A DNA stretch of 44,112 nucleotides from a bacterium BMS3Bbin13. Its GTDB lineage: Bacteria > Pseudomonadota > Gammaproteobacteria > 21-64-14. The position numbers and the translations under genes are program-made. Under the pieces are notes generated by a model. The model did no database searches. It worked only from the letters and a program-made list of their open reading frames with translations, and had not been told where the DNA came from. Position 1 is the first letter of the stretch. Each line of letters begins with the position of its first letter. Shown here in pieces: positions 1,805 to 17,377 of this stretch. The DNA lies in assembly GCA_002897735.1 (NCBI GenBank), contig BDTW01000051.1, positions 1 through 44,112 of the forward strand. Direction: 5' to 3'.

Positions 1805-2074
1805 CTACCGGCGCAACCCGAGGCGGCCGATCAACTCCTGATAACGACCGTGCTCCGTGCGCTTGAGATAGTCGAGCAGCTTGCGCCGCTGGCTCACCAT
1901 CCGCAGGAGACCTTGACGCGAATGGTGGTCATGCTTGTGGATGGCGAAGTGTCCGGTGAGATAATCGATACGCGCCGAGAGCAACGCGACCTGCACCTCG
2001 GGTGAACCGGTATCGTCCGATCCGCGCTGATAGTCCTGGATGATCTGCGACTTCTGCTCTTGATTAAATGGCAT
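1805..2074 (-). CDS. rpsO: 30S ribosomal protein S15
   Basis: An 89-residue primary 16S rRNA-binding protein of the small subunit, full length for the family. It shows the characteristic [14 protein letters not shown] helix, the [16 protein letters not shown] stretch and the basic C-terminal [11 protein letters not shown] helix. The ATG at 2072-2074 follows a CTGGAG site on the minus strand. It sits between truB and pnp as in most gammaproteobacteria. A candidate promoter of its own lies about 40-70 nt upstream, so it may be transcribed both from the long operon and separately. In E. coli S15 represses its own translation through an mRNA pseudoknot; I could not establish an equivalent fold here. 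Confidence 0.97.
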
Positions 2075-2151: not shown

Positions 2152-3069
2152 TCAGGCGCCGCTCACCAACCTGCGGGGCGCCACCCGTCCGTCATCGAGG
2201 ATCTGGCCCACCCCGAGAAAGCGCCGGTCCCGGGCATAGAGCCGCACCCAGCCCCGGGTCGGGGCGTGCGGCACGAGCACCGGTTGACCCCGACGCAGGT
2301 AGTAGGCCGCGTCATCGGACAGGCGCACGTCCGGCCACTCCGCGAGTGCGCTCTCCATCGGCAACAGTACTGTATCGAGCTGCCCCGCCCCCTCGGCGGC
2401 CAGCCGCCGCAGTGTCTCGAGGTCGACCATCTCGATGCCGTCGTAGGGCCCCACCGCCAGCCGCCGCAACGCGATCACATGGGCACCGCATCCGAGAGCC
2501 GCGCCGATGTCCTCGGCCAAGGTGCGGACATAGGTACCCTTGGAGCAGCGCACGTCGAACTCCAGAGTGTCACCCTCGAAGTACAACAACTCCAGCGTAT
2601 GGATCACCACCGGGCGCGGCTTGCGCTCCACCTCCACGCCCTGGCGCGCGAGCTTGTAGAGCCGCTGGCCCTGGTGCTTGAGCGCCGAGTACATGGGCGG
2701 GATCTGCTCCTGCGGGCCCTTGAACCCCTCCAGGACCCGCTCGACGCGCGCCCGATCCAGCCCTTCCACCGGGCGGATCTCCACGACCTCCCCCTCGGCG
2801 TCACCGGTGGTGGTCCGCTGCCCCAGGCGGCAACGGACCCGGTAGCGCTTGTTCGCGTCCAGCAGAAAACCGGACACCTTGGTCGCCTCACCCAGGCACA
2901 CCGGCAACAGACCGCTGGCAAGCGGATCCAGACTCCCCGTGTGGCCGGCCTTCTGGGCCTGGAACAGCCGCTTGACGACCTGCAGTGCCTCGTTCGAGGT
3001 CGGTCCCGGATCCTTGTCGAGCAACACGATACCGCTGATGTTCCTGCGCCGCCTGCGCTCACGCATCAT
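2152..3069 (-). CDS. truB: tRNA pseudouridine(55) synthase TruB
   Basis: Converts U55 to pseudouridine in the T-loop of tRNAs. It has 305 residues, normal for a proteobacterial TruB with its C-terminal PUA-like extension. The catalytic motif [12 protein letters not shown] is present with its nucleophilic Asp, preceded by the [13 protein letters not shown] motif I and followed by the [13 protein letters not shown] motif. The N-terminus is very basic (five consecutive Arg). ATG at 3067-3069 overlaps the rbfA stop codon by 4 nt, indicating translational coupling; a second ATG follows immediately. Confidence 0.97.
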
Positions 3070-3515
3070 GATCGATCTTCACCGCCGTTGTCTGGATCTT
3101 CCAACCCCGCGAGCCGACCGGGGGTCCCGTCGTGCGCCTCCGCCGCCGGGGCACGCTTGTTCCGGTCCTCGTTGACCGCCTGATCGATCAGGGAACTGAG
3201 CCGCGCGCCGCGCTCGATCGACGCGTCGTGCTCGAAGCGCAACCGCGGCACGACGCGCAGGCCGAGCGTACGCCCGAGCAGTCGCCTGAGAAAACCCGCC
3301 GCGTGGTTCAGCGCCGCGACCGCCTGCATCGGGTCCCGGTTCTCGTCGAGCACCGACACGAACACGCGGGCGTGGACGAGGTCGCGACTCATCCGCACCC
3401 CCGTAATCGTCACCCAACCCGCGCGCGGGTCCTGGAGATCACGTCGAATCAACGCCGAGAGTTCGCGCTGGATCTGCTCCCCCACGCGCCGGGTCCGGCT
3501 GAATTCCTTCGGCAT
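3066..3515 (-). CDS. rbfA: 30S ribosome-binding factor RbfA
   Basis: Cold-shock 30S maturation factor that acts near helix 1 of 16S rRNA. It has 149 residues. The KH-like fold region runs from [16 protein letters not shown] through the VSVLDENRD and [17 protein letters not shown] segments to the [10 protein letters not shown] motif, all typical. The C-terminus carries about 30 extra charged, low-complexity residues beyond the shortest homologues. It lies 35 nt downstream of infB and overlaps truB, as part of the same operon. Confidence 0.96.
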
Positions 3516-3550: not shown

Positions 3551-6043
3551 TCAGACCGTCCTGGCCACCTCGACCCGTTGAAACACCTCGATCTGGTCCC
3601 CGACCTTCACGTCGTTGTAGTTGCGCACACCGATGCCGCATTCCATCCCCGCACGAGCCTCGCTCACGTCTTCCTTGTAGCGGCGCAGGGATTCCAACTC
3701 GCCCTCGAACACCACCACGTTGTCGCGCAGAACCCGGATCGGGTTGTTGCGCTTCACCACGCCCTCCACCACCATGCAGCCGGCGATCGCACCGATCTTG
3801 GAGGAACGGAACACCTCGCGGACCTCCGCGAGCCCGACGATCTCCTCCTTGGTCTCCGGCGCGAGCATGCCGCTCAACGCCTGGCGCACCTCGTCGATCA
3901 CGTTGTAGATGACGCCGTAGTAGCGCAGATCCACATCGGACTCCGCAACCAGCTTGCGGGCGGTCGCATCGGCGCGCACGTTGAAGCCGATCAGGACCGC
4001 ATTGGAGGCCACCGCCAGGTTGACATCCGATTCGGTGATACCGCCCACGCCGCCGGCCACGATCTTGACCTTGACCTCGTCCGTGGACAGTTTTACCAGC
4101 GAGTCCCGAAGCGCCTCGGCGCTGCCCTGCACGTCGGCCTTGATAATCAAATTGAGGTTCTGAGCCTCGCCCTCTTCCATCTGCGAGAGGACGTCCTCGA
4201 GCTTCGCACCCTGCTGGCGCGCCAATCTGACATCGCGGTACTTGCCCTGCCGGTAGAGCGCGATCTCGCGCGCCTTGCGCTCGTCGGGCACCACCACCAT
4301 CTCGTCGCCGGCGTTGGGCAGCCCGGAGAGACCGAGCACCACGACCGGAATGGGGGGGGAGGCGGATTCCACCGCCTTTCCGGACTCGTCGAAGAGCGCG
4401 CGCACGCGCCCGAACTCCTTCCCCGAGAGGACCACGTCGCCCTTCTTGAGCATCCCGCTCTGCACCAGCACCGTCGCAACCGGGCCACGCCCCTTGTCGA
4501 GGCTGGATTCGAGCACGACACCGGCGGCCGGACCCTCGGCCGCCGCGGTGAGTTCCATGACCTCCGCCTGCAGCAGGAGCGCCTCCAGCAGTTCGTCGAT
4601 GCCCTCGCCGGTCTTGGCCGATACGTTGGCGAAGATGGTATCCCCGCCCCACGCCTCGGGGATCACTTCGTGCTGGGACAATTCCTGCTTGACGCGGTCC
4701 GGATCCGCCTCCGGCTTGTCGATCTTGTTGATCGCCACCACCAGCGGCACACCGGCCGCCTTGGCATGCTGAATCGCCTCGATCGTCTGCGGCATCACGC
4801 CGTCGTCGGCGGCCACTACCAGGACCACGATGTCGGTCACCTTGGCACCGCGCGCACGCATCGCCGTGAACGCCGCATGGCCGGGCGTATCGACAAACGT
4901 TATCCCGCCCTTGGGCGTCTTCACGTGGTAGGCACCGATGTGCTGCGTGATCCCCCCGGTCTCGCCGGCCGCCACCTTGGTACGGCGCACATAATCGAGC
5001 AGAGAGGTCTTGCCGTGATCGACGTGGCCCATGATGGTGACCACCGGGGGGCGCGCGACGGGTTTGGCATCACTGCGCTGTTCCGGGACCAGTTCCGACT
5101 CGAGATCGCTGTCCTTGAGCAGCTTCGGCGTGTGACCCAACTCCCCGACCACGAGCGCCGCGGTGTCCTGGTCGATCACCTGGTTGATGGTGGCCATCAT
5201 GCCCATGCCCATCATGGCCTTGATCAACTCGGCCGCCTTGATGGCCATCTTCTGGGCGAGTTCGCCCACCGTGACGGTCTCGGGGATGCTCACCTCGCGT
5301 ACGATCGGCGCCGTAGGCCGTTCGAACCCGTGCTGCGAACTGCCGGTAACCGTAACCGGGCGGGAGCGGGTGCGCTTGCGCCGGCGCCCGCTCTTGTCCA
5401 CCGCGACGTGCAGCTCGCGGCGCCCGTAGCGCGTCTCGCGATCGTCCTTGGAAGGCTTGCGCTTGGTGCCGCGCTCCGCCGGCGCCGGCGCGGGTGGCTG
5501 CTCCGCGACCGCGCGCGCCTGCTGTGCCGCGAGGAGCGCCTGCTGTTCCGCCTCCCGCCGCACCTGCTCTTCGGCCACTACGCGCTGCGCCTCTTCCTGT
5601 CGCTTGGCCTCCTCCGCCTCGGCCGCTTCCCGCACGCGACGCTCGGCATCGAGCCGCTCCTGTTCCAGGCGCGCCTGCTCGGCGGCCTCCTCTTCGCGGC
5701 GCTGGGCCTCCTCCTTGAGGATCTCGCTGCGCTTGATGTAGGTGCGCTTCTGCCGGACTTCGACGTTGACCACGCTCTTGGGCGCGCCGCGCCCCTGGCC
5801 GCTGCCGAACCGCAGTTCGCTCTGGACCTTGCGCTTGATCGTCACCTTCCTGGGTTCGGCGGATTCCGGTGCGGCCTTACCGTGCGCCTGGCGTAGGAAG
5901 GTCAACAGGCGCAATTTATCCTTGTCGTTGATCGTCGCCTCCGCACCGGTGACCGGCAGACCCGCCTCGCCCAACTGATCCAGCAGGCGCTCGACGGGGA
6001 TCCCGACCACCTCTGCGAACTGCTTTATAGTTACCTCCGGCAT
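3551..6043 (-). CDS. infB: Translation initiation factor IF-2
   Basis: GTPase that delivers fMet-tRNA to the 30S subunit and promotes subunit joining. It has 830 residues from the ATG at 6041-6043 ([15 protein letters not shown], the IF2 N-terminal domain), preceded by a GAGGAT ribosome site; a longer in-frame reading upstream lacks family similarity. A highly charged Glu/Arg/Ala-rich region follows (about residues 90-190), then the G domain with GHVDHGKT (G1), DTPGH (G3) and NKID (G4), and the C-terminal beta-barrels and fMet-tRNA-binding domain. It lies 14 nt downstream of nusA and upstream of rbfA, the canonical operon order. Confidence 0.97.
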
Positions 6044-6057
6044 ATCGATCCTCGATG

Positions 6058-7563
6058 TCAGTACTGTGACTGCTGCTCGTTCTCGAACCACGGGGCACGC
6101 GCCGTCATGATAAGCTGCGCGGCACGTTCCTCATCGACGTCGGCGATCTCCTTGAGTTCATCGACCGACTGTTCCGCCAAGTCCTCCATCGTCACCACGC
6201 CGGCGCCGGCCAGGCGATAGGCGAGTTCCCGGTCCATCCCCTCCATCTGCAGCAGGTCTTCCGCCGGCTTCACCGCACCGAGCTTCTCCTCGTCGGTGAT
6301 CGCCTTGATCAGCAGCATGTCGCGCGCCCGGTTACGCAGCTCATTGACGACGTTCTCATCAAACTCCTCGATGCCGAGCAGCTCTCCGGTCGGCACGTAG
6401 GCCACTTCCTCGATACTCGAGAAGCCTTCCTGCGCCAGGATCACCGCCACTTCCTCGTCGACGTCGAGCTGTTCCATGAACATCTTCTGCAGGGTCTGCC
6501 CCTCGGACTCGCTCTTCTCCTCGGCCTGGGCCTCGCTCATCACGTTGAGCTCCCATCCGGTGAGTTGGCTCGCCAGCCGAACGTTCTGGCCGCCCCGGCC
6601 GATGCTCTGCGCGAGTTTCTCCTCGGAGACGGCGATGTCCATACTGTGTACATCTTCATCGACCACGATGGAGACGACCTCCGCCGGCGACATGGCGTTG
6701 ATCACGAACTGCGCCGGATTCTCGTTCCAGAGGATGATGTCGATCCGTTCTCCGGTCAGTTCGTTCGAGACCGTCTGTACGCGCGAGCCGCGCATGCCGA
6801 CGCACGCACCCACCGGGTCGATGCGCGGATCGTTGGAGCGCACGGCGATCTTGGCGCGCAGCCCGGGATCGCGCGCCGCGGCCATGATATCGATGAGCCC
6901 CTGGCCCACCTCCGGGACCTCCAGTTTGAACAGCTCCACCAGCAACTCCGAGCGGGTACGGCTGACGAACAGCTGCGGGCCGCGCAGCTCGGCGTGCACA
7001 TCATACAGGTAGCCGCGGATCCGATCGCCCGGACGCAGCGCCTCGCGCGGGATCATCTCCTCGCGTGCGATCAGCGCCTCGGCATTGCCGCCCAGATCGA
7101 GGATCACGCCGCCGCGCTCGGAACGCTTCACGATGCCGCTCACGAGTTCCCCGACCCGATCCTGGTAGGCCTCCACGACCTGGGCCCGCTCCGCCTCCCG
7201 CACCTTCTGGACGATGACCTGTTTGGCGGTCTGCGCCGCGATGCGTCCGAAGACGATCGACTCCAGCGGCTCTTCGATATGCCCGCCGACCTCGATCGCG
7301 GGATCCCGCTCCCGGGCTTCCCGGAGGGTGAGCTGGTGCTCGGGGAATTCGATCTCCGCGTCGTCGGGCAACACCTCCCAGCAGCGGAACGTGCTGTAGT
7401 CGCCCGTCTCCCGGTCGATCGCCACACGCACCTCGACCTCGCTGCCGTAGCGCTTCTTGGTCGCCGAGGCGAGGGCGGCCTCGATGGCCTCGAATATGAT
7501 CTCCTTCTCGATGCCCTTCTCGTTGGAGACGGCATCCACCACCAGTAATATTTCTTTGTTCAT
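6058..7563 (-). CDS. nusA: Transcription termination/antitermination factor NusA
   Basis: RNA polymerase-associated elongation factor that modulates pausing, intrinsic termination and antitermination. It has 501 residues: an N-terminal RNAP-binding domain beginning [18 protein letters not shown], an S1 domain ([21 protein letters not shown]), two KH domains ([12 protein letters not shown] and [13 protein letters not shown]), and two C-terminal acidic repeats of the gammaproteobacterial type ([13 protein letters not shown] and the final helical part). The ATG at 7561-7563 is preferred over an in-frame TTG 15 nt upstream because GGAGGT sits 8 nt before it. In E. coli NusA feeds back on its own operon; the leader hairpins described at 8061-8266 would fit that. 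Confidence 0.97.
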
Positions 7564-7591
7564 TCCTGCGACCTCCAACGCCCGCCGGCTG

Positions 7592-8044
7592 TCACTCGGG
7601 GATTACCCGCGCCTTGGCGACGCGTTCCAGCGGGATGTCGATCTCCCGCCCATCCTCTTCGATCACGACCTGAGCGCCGCGCACCGCCACGAGCCGCCCG
7701 GTAAACTTGCGCCGCTCACCGAGCGACTCTCCGACCTGAATCCGCACCCGACTGCCGGCCTGACGGGCGAGTTGCTCGGCGTTGAACAACGGCCGATCGT
7801 CGCCCGGCGACGACACCTCGAGCACATAGGGACCGGATATCGGTTCCTCGACGTCCAGCACCCCGCTGAACTGCACGCTTATCCGCCGGCAGTCCTCCAG
7901 CGTAATTCCGCCCGCCCGGTCGATATAGGCGCGCAACACCTGCCCGCGCCCCTGGGCGTGATACTCGATCCCCAGGAGCTCATAGCCCATGGCCTGCGCC
8001 ACGGGACCCAGCAACTCCTGGAGCCTGTCACCGTCATCGTTCAC
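7592..8044 (-). CDS. rimP: Ribosome maturation factor RimP
   Basis: Early 30S assembly factor needed for maturation of the head domain. It has 150 residues from a GTG at 8042-8044 ([15 protein letters not shown]), the usual family length. It shows the N-terminal alpha/beta domain ([11 protein letters not shown]), the central [14 protein letters not shown] motif and the C-terminal SH3-like barrel. The upstream in-frame extension has no similarity and runs through the terminator hairpins, so it is rejected. The ribosome site is weak (GGGACC), which with the GTG suggests modest translation. It is the first gene of the nusA/infB operon, 28 nt before nusA. Confidence 0.94.
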
Positions 8045-8060
8045 GCCATCTGGTCCCGCA

Positions 8061-8084
8061 AATAAAAAATGGGCGCGAGGCCCA
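8061..8084 (-). terminator. Intrinsic-terminator-like hairpin in the rimP leader
   Basis: On the minus strand a TGGGC/GCCCA stem (8070-8084, 5-nt loop) is followed directly by ATTTTTTATT. It lies only 17 nt before the rimP GTG, between the candidate promoter and the gene. It is therefore more likely an attenuator than the end of an upstream gene, since no minus-strand gene lies within 4 kb upstream. Confidence 0.7.
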
Positions 8085-8160
8085 CTCCAAAAATACGAAG
8101 TAGTACATGCACTTAACCAACGCCACCTGCCCACCACACGCATCGGCGGGCGGCAGGCGC

Positions 8161-8180
8161 AAAAAAACCCCGCAACGGGG
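8161..8180 (-). terminator. Strong intrinsic-terminator-like hairpin in the rimP leader
   Basis: CCCCG/CGGGG stem with a 3-nt loop (8168-8180), followed on the minus strand by seven T residues (8161-8167). This is a textbook intrinsic terminator. It is placed about 85-105 nt downstream of the predicted transcription start, inside the leader of the rimP-nusA-infB operon. It could release a short leader RNA of about 100 nt. Confidence 0.8.
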
Positions 8181-8253
8181 CCAGCCACACTACAACCCGA
8201 TGCCCGCGGGGCCGGGGCGCTCCGGACATCGCCCGGACCCACGGCGGCGCAAA

Positions 8254-8266
8254 CCCCGCTTCGGGG
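8254..8266 (-). other. 5'-end stem-loop of the rimP operon leader
   Basis: A CCCCG/CGGGG 5-bp stem with a 3-nt loop, nearly identical in stem sequence to the terminator at 8168-8180 but followed by only three T residues on the minus strand. It would form at the very start of the transcript, because the predicted start site is near 8264. A role in 5'-end stability, or exchange pairing with the matching downstream stem, is conjecture. Confidence 0.5.
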
Positions 8267-8270
8267 TCGG

Positions 8271-8299
8271 ATTTTACACGACCCTACGGGCGGGTTCAA
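8271..8299 (-). promoter_or_regulatory. Candidate sigma70 promoter of the rimP-nusA-infB operon
   Basis: Minus-strand TTGAAC (8294-8299) and TAAAAT (8271-8276) with a 17-nt spacer. The -10 matches 5 of 6 consensus bases and the -35 matches 4 of 6. Initiation near 8264 would give a leader of about 220 nt before rimP. The tRNA gene that stands at this place in E. coli (metY) is absent; I found no T-arm signature on either strand. Confidence 0.6.
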
Positions 8300-8485
8300 C
8301 GCAGGATGAAACCGGGCGCCTCAGCCCGTACCTGGGCCGGGCGTCGGGGCGGGGATGACGAGATCTGTGACCGAGTGCCCACTCCGCCGCCGGCTCCCGG
8401 CGCATGATAGGCATTGTCCGGCACACGCGCCGGGGTCGGCAACCCCGAACCACCGCCAACCACCATCTTAAAGGATCCGCCCAGG

Positions 8486-11002
<2,517 letters not shown>

Positions 11003-11004
11003 CC

Positions 11005-12189
11005 ATGGCTATCGACTTACGCAATGAGAGACGCACCGGTGTCGGCGGAAACGGCTTCCGTAAAGCCTTCCGCACCTTCGCAGCCGCCGCAGCGCTTGGA
11101 GCCTTTGTGTCCGCCTACGGGGCCACGCCACCGTACCCGCAGAGCACGGTTATCACGGGAGTAACGTGGGACTTTGGCAGTCAGCAGCGGCTGGCCCCGG
11201 GCAGCGATATGTGGCCTATTACCTGGGCTTCCGATGGAAATCTCTACACGATTTGGGGTGATGGCGGCGGGTTCGGTGGGACGAACAACCTTGGCCGCGT
11301 CAGCACCGGCATCGCGCGGATCGGCGGCACCCCCCCGACTCTGACGACAACCAACATCAACGGCGGAGTGGCTTCCGCGAGCCCGCCCACTTGGGCGTGC
11401 TCCAACTGCGGTAAAAGTGATGCGGTCCTGTCCGTCGGCGGCGTCCTCTACGCATCGTTCAACGCTCAAACGGGAGGCAGTTCGCCGGTCCATCGGCTCA
11501 TGTGGTCAAACGATCTCGGAAAGTCCTGGCAGTACTCAAGCTGGCAGTATCCGGACAGCGCCTATCCGGCGGTGATACCCGGCTCCTTTCTGAATTTCGG
11601 ACAAGACTATCACGGCGCCCCGGATAACTACGTCTATATGTACTCCCAATACCTGTCCCTGCCGTTTGCCGACGGAGCAACCTCGATCTGGCTTACGCGT
11701 GCACCCAAGGATCGCTTACTTGATCGAGGGGCCTACCAAGTCTTTACCGGACTCGACAGAAGCGGGAACCCGACATGGAGTACCGGCACCGCCAACGCAA
11801 AGCCGGTATTCACGGATTCCAACGGGGTCGATTGGCAGCAGGCCGTGTACGATCCGGGGCTCGGGCGCTACCTCCTTACCGTCGTACATGGAGAAAAAAA
11901 CGCCAACGGCTGGAACGGAGACGGCTCGTGGGGAATCTTCGACGCCCCGCACCCGTGGGGTCCGTGGACCACGGTCGCCTACTACGACCGGTGGATCGAC
12001 AGCACGCCCAAGTTCTCCTTCAGCATCCCGCAAAAATGGATGAGCCCGGATGGGACCAAATTCGTACTGGTATTTTCCGGTACCGGGCCATATGATTCCT
12101 GGAATACGATTTCCGGAACCTTTCTCTTATCGCCCCAAACCGCCCCACCGCCGGCGCCCACCGGGGTCAAACTCCAGATCTCACCGTAA
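11005..12189 (+). CDS. Secreted DUF4185-type protein (putative beta-propeller glycan-related protein)
   Basis: About 394 residues from the ATG at 11005, which comes 2 nt after the lipoprotein stop. A longer in-frame reading from 10894 overlaps that gene and is rejected. An N-terminal arginine-containing region followed by FRTFAAAAALGAFVSAYGA looks like a Sec signal with cleavage after AYGA. The mature part shows features of the DUF4185 family: DMWPITWASDGNLYTIWGDGGGF near the start, LMWSNDLGKSW, YVYMYSQY, a VDWQQAVYDPGLGRYLLTVVHG segment, and WGPWTTVAYYDRW near the end. These resemble repeated blades of a glycosidase-like propeller. Function in this family is not established. The cotranscribed lipoprotein and the nearby glycan genes suggest work on an extracellular polysaccharide. 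Confidence 0.65.
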   Translation: MAIDLRNERRTGVGGNGFRKAFRTFAAAAALGAFVSAYGATPPYPQSTVITGVTWDFGSQQRLAPGSDMWPITWASDGNLYTIWGDGGGFGGTNNLGRVSTGIARIGGTPPTLTTTNINGGVASASPPTWACSNCGKSDAVLSVGGVLYASFNAQTGGSSPVHRLMWSNDLGKSWQYSSWQYPDSAYPAVIPGSFLNFGQDYHGAPDNYVYMYSQYLSLPFADGATSIWLTRAPKDRLLDRGAYQVFTGLDRSGNPTWSTGTANAKPVFTDSNGVDWQQAVYDPGLGRYLLTVVHGEKNANGWNGDGSWGIFDAPHPWGPWTTVAYYDRWIDSTPKFSFSIPQKWMSPDGTKFVLVFSGTGPYDSWNTISGTFLLSPQTAPPPAPTGVKLQISP

Positions 12190-12399: not shown

Positions 12400-13500
12400 T
12401 CAAAGTCGGGTTAAAATTGACAGTGTATTTCTTGCGGTACTCTTCCAGGTAAAATCTTTCACTCGAAGCAAACCTTTCGCGATCAATTCATTTCTGAAGA
12501 CACGATCGGTAAGCGTAAAGTAAATAGCATTGGATATATCCGCCACATCATATGGATCAACAATATTTGCCGCGTCACCCACTACCTCGGGGCATGACCC
12601 TCTGTTCGAAGTAACTATGGGGCATCCACACGCCATCGCTTCCAATAACGGAATTCCGAATCCTTCATACAAAGACGGGAAAAGAAAAAGATCGGCCAAA
12701 TTGTAGAATACAGGTAAATCTGCATCCGGTATAACACCCACCCTTGTAACATAATCCGATAACCCTAACTCATCGATCAAGGCGACCTCTTTTTCATATT
12801 TCAATGTTGCTTTCCCAACGATTATCAACTTGTGCGGTATTTTATTTCTAATTTGCGAGTATGATCTTATTATCCCGGAGAGATTTTTCATGGGATATAT
12901 TTGCCCGACATATAAAATGAATTTTTCGGGTAAATTATATTTTTCTCTAACTGCTTTTAAACGGTTTTCATCGCGGATAACCTGGAAATTTTCACCCACA
13001 CCATGATGGACTGTTTTTAACTTTTTCCGCTGAATCTTCAAGTGCCTAATGATTTCGTTCGTGGCATTTTGTGATACTGAAATAACCAAATCCGCCTTTT
13101 TGCAATATAGTGATGCAAATATTCGATGGTAAAGCCGATCTAAAAATTTATAATTTTCAGGAAAAACAAACCAATCCGCCCCATGAAGCACAAAGGCCGT
13201 TTTTTTCGACGTAAATAATGGTACGGATAATTTTGGATTGAAAATCAAGTCGACTTTGTATTTCCATGCCATATAGGGAACGGCTATTTGATCCCAGACA
13301 ATATTCCCCGGCAGATTGATGGAAACTTCCGAAACATTCATATGCTTTGAATACGCACCAATATGCTTTTCTTCTTTGTACATTAATACGTATGTATTTT
13401 CCGCATCCATAGACAACATGTTTGACAACAGCTGCTTTGTATAAACTTTCACACCGCCTTCATGCTGGTCTAAATGGCGGAGCATAATTCCTATTTTCAT
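12400..13500 (-). CDS. Glycosyltransferase family 4, AT-rich
   Basis: A 366-residue GT-B fold retaining glycosyltransferase that moves a sugar from a nucleotide donor, probably on the cytoplasmic face. The N-terminal acceptor domain opens MKIGIMLRHLDQHEGGVKVYTK. The C-terminal donor domain shows FILYVGQIYPMKNLSGII and the EX7E motif EGFGIPLLE, followed by MACGCPIVTSNRGSCPEV. The ATG at 13498-13500 is chosen for GGAAGG 8 nt upstream; a GTG three codons earlier is possible. Base composition is far from the neighbours: two 60-base stretches I counted were 27% and 43% GC, and Lys, Ile and Asn codons are frequent. This points to recent transfer. Substrate is unknown. Confidence 0.88.
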   Translation of the reverse strand: MKIGIMLRHLDQHEGGVKVYTKQLLSNMLSMDAENTYVLMYKEEKHIGAYSKHMNVSEVSINLPGNIVWDQIAVPYMAWKYKVDLIFNPKLSVPLFTSKKTAFVLHGADWFVFPENYKFLDRLYHRIFASLYCKKADLVISVSQNATNEIIRHLKIQRKKLKTVHHGVGENFQVIRDENRLKAVREKYNLPEKFILYVGQIYPMKNLSGIIRSYSQIRNKIPHKLIIVGKATLKYEKEVALIDELGLSDYVTRVGVIPDADLPVFYNLADLFLFPSLYEGFGIPLLEAMACGCPIVTSNRGSCPEVVGDAANIVDPYDVADISNAIYFTLTDRVFRNELIAKGLLRVKDFTWKSTARNTLSILTRL

Positions 13501-13633
13501 TTGCAGCACCTTCCCCCTTCAGGTCACATACCAGCTCAATCCATGCATTCAGGTTTCCGGAAAACAGCGCAGATCCCATACCTCCTCCGCAGCCCAATCG
13601 GAACGACGTGCGGCTCCAAACCGCCGCACACCT

Positions 13634-15106
13634 TCAACTCGCCGCTCTCTGCCTGATCGCCTCGATGATCTCCTTAATCTCCCGCACCCGAACAAGCCCC
13701 GTCGTTGCGAGCAGCAACCCATAGACAAGCACAAATCCTAAAAACCCGACCAGCCCGCTCACCACTCCGCCCCGAAAACCCAGAAAAGGAATAATGACGA
13801 CAGCGGCTCCTGCGACCAGGATCGCATCACGCACGCAATGTATCATCTGCTCCTTAAAGAATGCGCTCATAGCAACCGCCAACACGACGCCCGAGATCCC
13901 CGTTGCCACCGCAGCGCCCATCGATTGCAGCCGCGGGATCAATACCGCTGCCGCCAACAGAAAACTGGCCACGGCCATGGTTAGCCCCGCAAAATATCTG
14001 GCCGGTTTGTTATACACTATCGAAAACACTATCCCCATCTTCGCGACGACAAACGCGACACCCCCCATGAGCAAAACGGCCCCATTCCGGTAGATATCCG
14101 AATACTCTCCACCGATCACCCATGGAATCAGACCGGGGCCCGCAATAGCAAAGCCCGCGAATATTATCGTACACAATGCCACCCCATACTTGACCATACG
14201 TCGAGACCACCGCATCAACTTCTCTTCCTGGCCGGACATTCGCAGCTTAACAAACATGGGCACAAGCGCACTGAAAAGAGTCAGGATTCCGCTGAGCGTA
14301 ATGATGAAGATCTGATTGGGAATATCAAAAATCGCCACTTGGTGCGGATCGTGCGTAAACTTGTCGATAAGAACGTTGCCGACACGCTGCCAAATATTGG
14401 TAAGGACCCAACAAAGATAAAAGATAAATCCAAACTGCACGTACGGCATCAGGGACCTGGGCTTCAGATCGAAGCGGCTGTGCGCCAAGTAGGTCCTTGT
14501 CCAGTAAAAGCCAAGGGAGAAAAGCAGAGCCTCAACCAGAAACATCGCCAGCACCGCACCGAATAAGCCGTAAAAATGCACCAACAGCAGCACGAGACCC
14601 AGGCTCAACGCCCGTCTTATCGGATCACGGGCGGAAAACCGGCTCAGCTTGTTCAAGCCAAAGAGCAAGGCGTATGCGGTATTTTGCAAATCACGCAAAA
14701 AAACAGTGCTTACCAGAGCGATCAAGTACGCATTCGGGAACCGGTCTCCATAGATATATTTGAGCAGCAGCAGCAATCCCGTCACCGCAACAATGTCAAC
14801 TATGGCCTTGACGAGAAGCATCGACGAATAAAACCGACGCACTTCCGCTACGCCCCCTCTCATCTCCATCTCCGGAACGAAACGCGCGCAAATCTCCTCT
14901 ATTCCGAAATTAATAAGTGCATCGGCAATAGTAAGTATCGACAACAGTAATACGTATTCCCCGTAGATCTCCGCGCCGAGCGTACGAGGTACGAGCATCA
15001 TGAAGACGGCGAGCAACGGGTATTGCGCGGCCTTGAAGGCCGCTATCTTGGATAGGTTTTTTGTCGTTAAAATCGCCTCGTCCGAGACGTTACCCTTGTC
15101 GCGCAT
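13634..15106 (-). CDS. Wzx-like polysaccharide flippase (MATE/MVF superfamily)
   Basis: About 490 residues with roughly 12-14 predicted membrane segments, the pattern of lipid-linked oligosaccharide flippases and O-antigen/teichoic exporters. It begins with a typical region (KIAAFKAAQYPLLAVFMMLVPRTLG) and has GEYVLLLSILTIADALINFGIEE in the first helices. It would move a lipid-linked repeat unit across the inner membrane. The ATG at 15104-15106 is preferred (GGAA 8 nt upstream) over one 13 codons earlier at 15145, which has no ribosome site. It lies between two glycosyltransferase genes and a deacetylase gene, which supports an exopolysaccharide role. No Wzy polymerase is seen in the window. 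Confidence 0.85.
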   Translation of the reverse strand: MRDKGNVSDEAILTTKNLSKIAAFKAAQYPLLAVFMMLVPRTLGAEIYGEYVLLLSILTIADALINFGIEEICARFVPEMEMRGGVAEVRRFYSSMLLVKAIVDIVAVTGLLLLLKYIYGDRFPNAYLIALVSTVFLRDLQNTAYALLFGLNKLSRFSARDPIRRALSLGLVLLLVHFYGLFGAVLAMFLVEALLFSLGFYWTRTYLAHSRFDLKPRSLMPYVQFGFIFYLCWVLTNIWQRVGNVLIDKFTHDPHQVAIFDIPNQIFIITLSGILTLFSALVPMFVKLRMSGQEEKLMRWSRRMVKYGVALCTIIFAGFAIAGPGLIPWVIGGEYSDIYRNGAVLLMGGVAFVVAKMGIVFSIVYNKPARYFAGLTMAVASFLLAAAVLIPRLQSMGAAVATGISGVVLAVAMSAFFKEQMIHCVRDAILVAGAAVVIIPFLGFRGGVVSGLVGFLGFVLVYGLLLATTGLVRVREIKEIIEAIRQRAAS

Positions 15107-15281
15107 CACATTATTTCCGGCATTGGGCTTGGGCCGTGTTAGCATGCGAGGTCAGGCTGGGGCGCCAACTCACCGGCTGAGTGAGGATCGGCGCCATTCT
15201 CGAACGACTCCGGCCGCCAAGAACGCAATGGCATCGGCGGGTCCGGGCGACCTGCGAGCGCGCGCCGCGGCCGGCCATTGC

Positions 15282-16100: not shown

Positions 16101-17377
16101 GACGCCTCACCGGCACCCTTTCGCAGATCATCGAAAAGATCCATGTACCGGCGGGCTTCGTTGTCGATACTATATTCCCCCCCTGCCGCGGTCGCCGCAT
16201 GTGCACCCATTGCCTTCCAATGATCGCGACGTTCAAGCATCCACACTATGGCGCTACGCAGCTCCGCCGGATCCTTCGGGGCCACCAGTCGCCCATACTC
16301 TCCATCCCGAATCACCTGCGCCGCCACACCTACGTTTGTCGCAATCGCCGGCAATCCGCAAAATACCGCCTCAAGCAGGGCCGAACCAAACCCCTCGTAA
16401 TCGCTAGGAAAAACAAACACATCCGCTGCTTGAAGATACTCACAAACACTGTCTACTTCTCCCGCCAGAGTGACGTACGCCTCCAGATCATTCTCCCGGA
16501 TGAATGTCTTCAACTCATCCTCGCAACCGTCGACGGAGCGCTTTCCGGAACCCACGTACAACAAATGGATCTTCGGGTACCTGCGCACCATCTCATCCCA
16601 TATGTAGACAAGGTCCATTACCCCCTTCATCCTGGCCAATCGCCCGGTGAAAACGAATATTGCCCGGTCGTCGGGAAGACCGAATTCGCGACGCAGCCGA
16701 AACTTGTCGGCCTCCGTCACGGGGTGAAAGACACTGGGATCGGCCCCGTTAGGGATTTCGGCGATCCTACGAGAATCGACGCCGATATCCAAATACTGCT
16801 GCCGAATTTCCTCGGAAATCGCTACCAAACAATCGGCACGACGCAGAACGCCGTTACGGATATTGCGCAAGATCCGAAGAAGCACATTGACTCCGGGAAA
16901 GCCCATTTTTTTCAGACTTTCCGTAGATATGGCCTCCTGCAACTCAATCGGGGACCCGGACCTGATCACACACGGTTTATGCAGCACTTTGGACACCAGG
17001 ACGGCGGGGATGGAAAGGACCCTGACGCCCGAGACCATGAGTATGTCATAGCGCTTGGCATGTCTTAGCAGTAGATAAGTAACACGCACCAACAGAGACA
17101 GCAACGGCACAAGTGCATTCCAACCTTTCCCCTTCAAGATCCCTACGGGGGGAATCCGGCGTATGGGAACGTTTTTGAATACTTCGTGCGCGGGTGACGT
17201 CGGATCCATTTTTCTGGTGAGGACCGTGACGTCCATATCCGCCGAAACCAACTTGCTCAAAAGCAAATGGGCGTGCTTCTCCAGGCCGCCTACAAACGGC
17301 GGGTAAAAACTTTCCGCAAGGAACCATACCCGCTGCTTTTTGCCGACACCAATATTCGACTTGACGGAGCGCGCCAT
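16097..17377 (-). CDS. Glycosyltransferase family 4
   Basis: A 426-residue GT-B fold glycosyltransferase. Its N-terminal domain shows the FYPPFVGGLEKHAHLLLSKL motif typical of GT4 enzymes. The C-terminal domain has FVFTGRLARMKGVMDL and the EX7E motif EGFGSALLE, followed by FCGLPAIATNVG. Start ATG at 17375-17377 has GAGGAA 7-8 nt upstream. It is the first recognisable gene of the minus-strand glycan cluster. Composition is nearer to the chromosome than that of the GT4 at 12400-13500, so the two transferases probably have different histories. Donor and acceptor cannot be told. Confidence 0.9.
   Translation of the reverse strand: MARSVKSNIGVGKKQRVWFLAESFYPPFVGGLEKHAHLLLSKLVSADMDVTVLTRKMDPTSPAHEVFKNVPIRRIPPVGILKGKGWNALVPLLSLLVRVTYLLLRHAKRYDILMVSGVRVLSIPAVLVSKVLHKPCVIRSGSPIELQEAISTESLKKMGFPGVNVLLRILRNIRNGVLRRADCLVAISEEIRQQYLDIGVDSRRIAEIPNGADPSVFHPVTEADKFRLRREFGLPDDRAIFVFTGRLARMKGVMDLVYIWDEMVRRYPKIHLLYVGSGKRSVDGCEDELKTFIRENDLEAYVTLAGEVDSVCEYLQAADVFVFPSDYEGFGSALLEAVFCGLPAIATNVGVAAQVIRDGEYGRLVAPKDPAELRSAIVWMLERRDHWKAMGAHAATAAGGEYSIDNEARRYMDLFDDLRKGAGEAS

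Follow-up and report, generated by a model that had tools for sequence, protein, structure and literature searches.

The window, the whole 44,112-nucleotide stretch of bacterium BMS3Bbin13 DNA analyzed here, carries on its minus strand an essential operon with the order rimP-nusA-infB-rbfA-truB-rpsO. The DNA between the operon promoter and rimP very probably specifies an untranslated leader of ~220 nt, with its own sigma70 promoter and two intrinsic terminators in tandem, which we call t1 and t2. The operon encodes NusA, and the leader sits downstream of the operon promoter. In order of transcription, the features are as follows.

8271–8299, minus strand: sigma70-type promoter, TTGAAC (8299–8294), 17-nt spacer, TAAAAT (8276–8271), identified by consensus scan and by the hexamers and spacing of the congener
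8254–8266, minus strand: 5′ hairpin CCCCG-AAG-CGGGG, whose 3′ arm is AAGCGGGG (8261–8254)
8161–8182, minus strand: t1, the upstream intrinsic terminator, of the CCCg...cGGG type (GGCCCCG-TTG-CGGGGTT) with a T run down to 8161, identified by terminator scan and congener conservation
8057–8091, minus strand: t2, the downstream intrinsic terminator, of the GGGc...gCCC type with a T run, identified by a covariance model of other genera; the hairpin (8088–8061) is GGAGTGGGC...GCCCATTTTTT and the end ...GCCCA with TTTTTTATTT, to 8057
7592–8044, minus strand: rimP, 150 amino acids, GTG start at 8044–8042 (Pfam RimP_N and RimP C-terminal domain)
6058–7578, minus strand: nusA (Pfam NusA_N, S1, KH_5); the listed open reading frame begins with TTG and an MNKE start lies a few codons further in
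3551–6091, minus strand: infB, encoding IF2 (Pfam IF-2, IF2_N, GTP_EFTU)
3066–3515, minus strand: rbfA (Pfam)
2152–3069, minus strand: truB (Pfam)
1805–2074, minus strand: rpsO (Pfam)

In the initial annotation, the promoter (TTGAAC-17-TAAAAT) was followed by a hairpin at the 5′ end and then by a pair of terminator hairpins with T runs, all ahead of the rimP GTG. All are present on the minus strand as described, with the position of the GTG amended to 8044–8042, ~16 nt from t2. The promoter is the single promoter-like site that a scan detects between 7000 and 9000, where shuffled sequences are expected to give 0.2. A generic terminator scan of 2 kb detects both t1 and t2 among three terminator-like sites, compared to 1.0 ± 0.9 in shuffles. 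When the window was scanned on both strands for the signature of t1 (CCCG..CGGG followed by a T run) and that of t2 (GGGC..GCCC followed by a T run), each was unique to the leader, apart from a weak t1-like match at 16675. The folding energy of the whole leader is unremarkable for its composition (z = −0.92). What speaks for the leader is the presence of conserved motifs, not total stability.

Plus-strand genes occupy 8414–12189, so t1 and t2 do not directly follow any minus-strand gene that they could end, as the initial annotation had also noted; the nearest upstream minus-strand genes (12400–15145) are ~4 kb away. The large divergent gene at 8414–11002 (plus strand) encodes Big_9, cadherin-like and fibronectin type III domains behind a lipoprotein-like N terminus, and its homolog in the congener, which is 71% identical, also lies beside the rimP leader.

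Two genomes of this order were compared in all, that of the window and one other, the congener, whose RimP and NusA proteins are 74% and 92% identical to those of the window. (In a scan of named genomes, the closest RimP was only ~51% identical.) The congener keeps promoter, t1 and t2 in identical order. Identities are 23/29 for the promoter, with both hexamers and the 17-nt spacing unchanged, 26/28 for t1 and 27/29 for t2, against a background of 60–66% in the spacers and 50% in the DNA upstream. The congener t2 is farther from rimP than in the window, ~187 nt before the aligned start. The 5′ hairpin is weaker in the congener (CCACCG/CGGGG), where its 5′ arm is interrupted and its 3′ arm, AAGCGGGG, is retained.

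The terminators recur well beyond this genus. Among 84 rimP upstream regions, 30 obtained via genome search and 54 from genome contigs, 60 carry the t2 signature (58/82 outside the genus), mostly 24–85 nt before the gene, 25 carry that of t1, and 24 carry both. With the own genus left out, the 300 nt preceding rimP contain 2.2 t2 signatures per kb on the sense strand, compared to 0.07 for the loci overall on both strands; the corresponding figures for t1 are 0.8 and 0.04 per kb. In one relative without a tRNA (L019), an apparent extra CCCC...GGGG terminator precedes t1 and t2, making three in a row. From 35 sequences, none of this genus and some of them enterobacterial, we built a covariance model of t2, which matches the window at 8091–8057 (40.2 bits, E = 1.4e-7). 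The model also matches the congener and E. coli, which is not itself a row, although other Enterobacteria are. The Rfam model of the rimP leader, RF01770, gave no match in the window at its gathering cut-off (47 bits) or at E ≤ 10 and was absent from the leaders of this genus in Rfam scans; as a control, the E. coli leader scored 102 bits. Matches to SorX and to miRNA in the Rfam scans were below cut-off and were set aside as chance or generic terminators.

If t1 and t2 are terminators, how would they act on the operon? RNA polymerase would start near 8268–8262 and then meet t1 and t2, and a fraction of transcripts would terminate at each, before rimP. From the E. coli metY-nusA-infB operon and the rimP leaders of Gram-positive bacteria, we infer by analogy that NusA, which the second gene encodes, would raise the terminated fraction at both sites, and the outcome would be negative feedback on NusA, IF2 and ribosome-assembly factors. 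On this analogy, the most likely reading is that NusA-stimulated premature termination limits expression of rimP-nusA-infB-rbfA-truB-rpsO. A 2011 study by Bylund et al., cited in PMC4448216, reportedly concerns NusA feedback.

One alternative is that the leader contains an RNA switch, in which AAGCGGGG acts as an antiterminator by pairing with the t1 5′ arm until NusA, or some other factor serving as the signal, frees that arm. The initial annotation had raised a switch between the 5′ hairpin and t1, and predicted folds favor this pairing: the AAGCGGGG segment outranks all other partners of the t1 5′ arm in both genomes, at homologous positions, and its pairing with that arm dominates the predicted ensembles (probability 0.94–1.0 in both). 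The segment is conserved at 15/16 positions, both differences within the pairing (U to C, on either strand) preserve it, and the congener keeps this long-range pairing but not an intact local hairpin at the 5′ end. Against the switch, the complementarity is marginal when compared to shuffles. In shuffles that preserve conservation, 27, 10 and 13 of 300 (blocks of 1, 2 and 3 columns, respectively) match the joint complementarity, placing it marginally above chance at about 0.03–0.09 for two genomes, and when each genome is taken singly, dinucleotide shuffles reach the complementarity in 37% and 8% of cases. The case also rests on two genomes, AAGCGGGG coincides with the predicted transcription start, which may be why it is conserved, and equilibrium folding disregards the order of transcription, during which the 5′ hairpin can form earlier. 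An antiterminator role for AAGCGGGG on the t1 arm is plausible, and we regard the switch as a whole as rather unlikely. For t2, no upstream segment in the window or the congener pairs with the 5′ arm better than chance. In Enterobacteria, a segment, GGGUCCAGU, can pair with that arm; we looked for a t2 antiterminator of this type and found no counterpart of GGGUCCAGU in the window.

A second alternative, of similarly low probability, is that t1 is mainly the relic terminator of a lost tRNA-fMet gene and that t2 alone regulates rimP. A tRNA-Met with a CAT anticodon and initiator-like features precedes rimP in 54/84 loci. The window contains no tRNA; the leading tRNA-fMet, whose absence the initial annotation had noted, is also missing before rimP in the congener, and each of the two genomes retains one elsewhere. 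In favor of a relic, t1 lies only some 4–25 nt after tRNA-fMet in eight survey loci (L004, L005, L007, L015, L016, L032, L050 and L051). Moreover, t1 is present in 21/54 loci with a detected tRNA-Met and in 4/30 loci without, a difference that is swayed in part by contig truncation and Enterobacteria. However, t1 is near-identical in the two genomes that have lost the tRNA, although their spacers differ by 34–40%, pointing to selection, and in Enterobacteria t1 sits near t2, with ~130 nt between it and the tRNA. In many relatives, where t1 is ~20 nt past tRNA-fMet, it may primarily end the tRNA transcript. A further locus (L088; G000 contig C3, 50199–51814) carries an array-like group of ~15 tRNA genes in 1.6 kb, several with weak scores.

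In both congeners, the stretch that spans the promoter and the 5′ hairpin is similar to tRNA-fMet, chiefly to its 3′ half (8254–8320 of the window, minus strand, and 2334–2420 of locus L003). It may be a decayed copy of the tRNA gene found here in other Gammaproteobacteria. Scores equal to those of the tRNA-like stretch, AACCCG...GTCGTG-TAAAATCC, were reached in 20 and 9 of 500 shuffles for the two congeners, and 11/418 and 2/186 comparable genomic chunks score as high. A decayed tRNA-fMet overlapping the promoter is suggestive only; the similarity is not clearly above chance, and we do not claim it. An account joining these elements, in which tRNA-fMet was lost, AAGCGGGG and t1 provide conditional termination independent of a tRNA and the promoter possibly lies on the 3′ half of a decayed tRNA, is improbable. 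Least probable is that t1 and t2 only shield rimP from antisense transcription or read-through arriving from upstream, with no regulation of the operon: given the plus-strand genes upstream, stray minus-strand transcription would reach rimP, but both terminators are downstream of the conserved rimP promoter and would stop rimP transcription itself. In addition, the rimP-specific t2 motif recurs throughout Gammaproteobacteria about equally far from rimP, regardless of the upstream neighbor.

Regulated termination within the leader remains our preferred reading. That the pair of terminators survives loss of the initiator tRNA favors a role in control of rimP-nusA-infB over one solely in ending the tRNA transcript. 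Only two points here are mildly new, namely this loss of the tRNA and how little of the class RF01770 covers: the rimP leader extends well past the sequences that model recognizes. A covariance model covering rimP leaders more broadly would be a useful by-product.

In all likelihood, the leader in the window is a rimP-leader, of the kind already described in many bacteria. The class was defined as a GGGc(...)gCCC terminator with a U stretch 4–130 nt before rimP, to which several Gammaproteobacteria add, in tandem and further upstream, a terminator whose motif is the inverse, CCCg(...)cGGG; in this tandem form, an antiterminator structure was tied to the upstream terminator, and NusA was named the best candidate regulator (Naville and Gautheret, 2010; PMC2965389). 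By motif and by covariance model, the window leader belongs to this class: upstream of rimP-nusA-infB, t2 has the defining motif ~16 nt before the GTG and t1 (8182–8161) supplies the tandem form. The earlier description of an attenuator-like leader is well supported. The leader differs from RF01770 in scoring no match to that model and from those of Enterobacteria in the spacing of t1 and t2 (96 nt, compared to ~43 nt there) and in the GGGUCCAGU pairing with the t2 arm that they alone of the two possess.

The initial annotation implied a contrast with E. coli that does not hold, as metY-rimP-nusA-infB of E. coli also has two leader terminators before rimP, in the same order and on the same operon. 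The two do differ in that E. coli carries metY, a tRNA-fMet gene, ahead of the terminators, with promoters upstream of metY (PMC6511841), whereas the window has one promoter just before the leader and no tRNA. In E. coli, reduced NusA termination raises operon transcripts, and cold-shock induction showed no sign of read-through as its cause (PMC6511841); because that study saw no role for read-through in cold-shock induction, the stimulus to which the terminators respond is debated. Finally, we note the rimP (ylxS) leaders of Gram-positive bacteria. Although these belong to a different phylum and a single terminator has been described, they share with the window a leader terminator and a proposed NusA feedback (PMC4448216, PMC2965389), as in Streptococcus agalactiae, in which a short terminated rimP leader transcript was found and feedback by NusA was proposed (PMC4448216).
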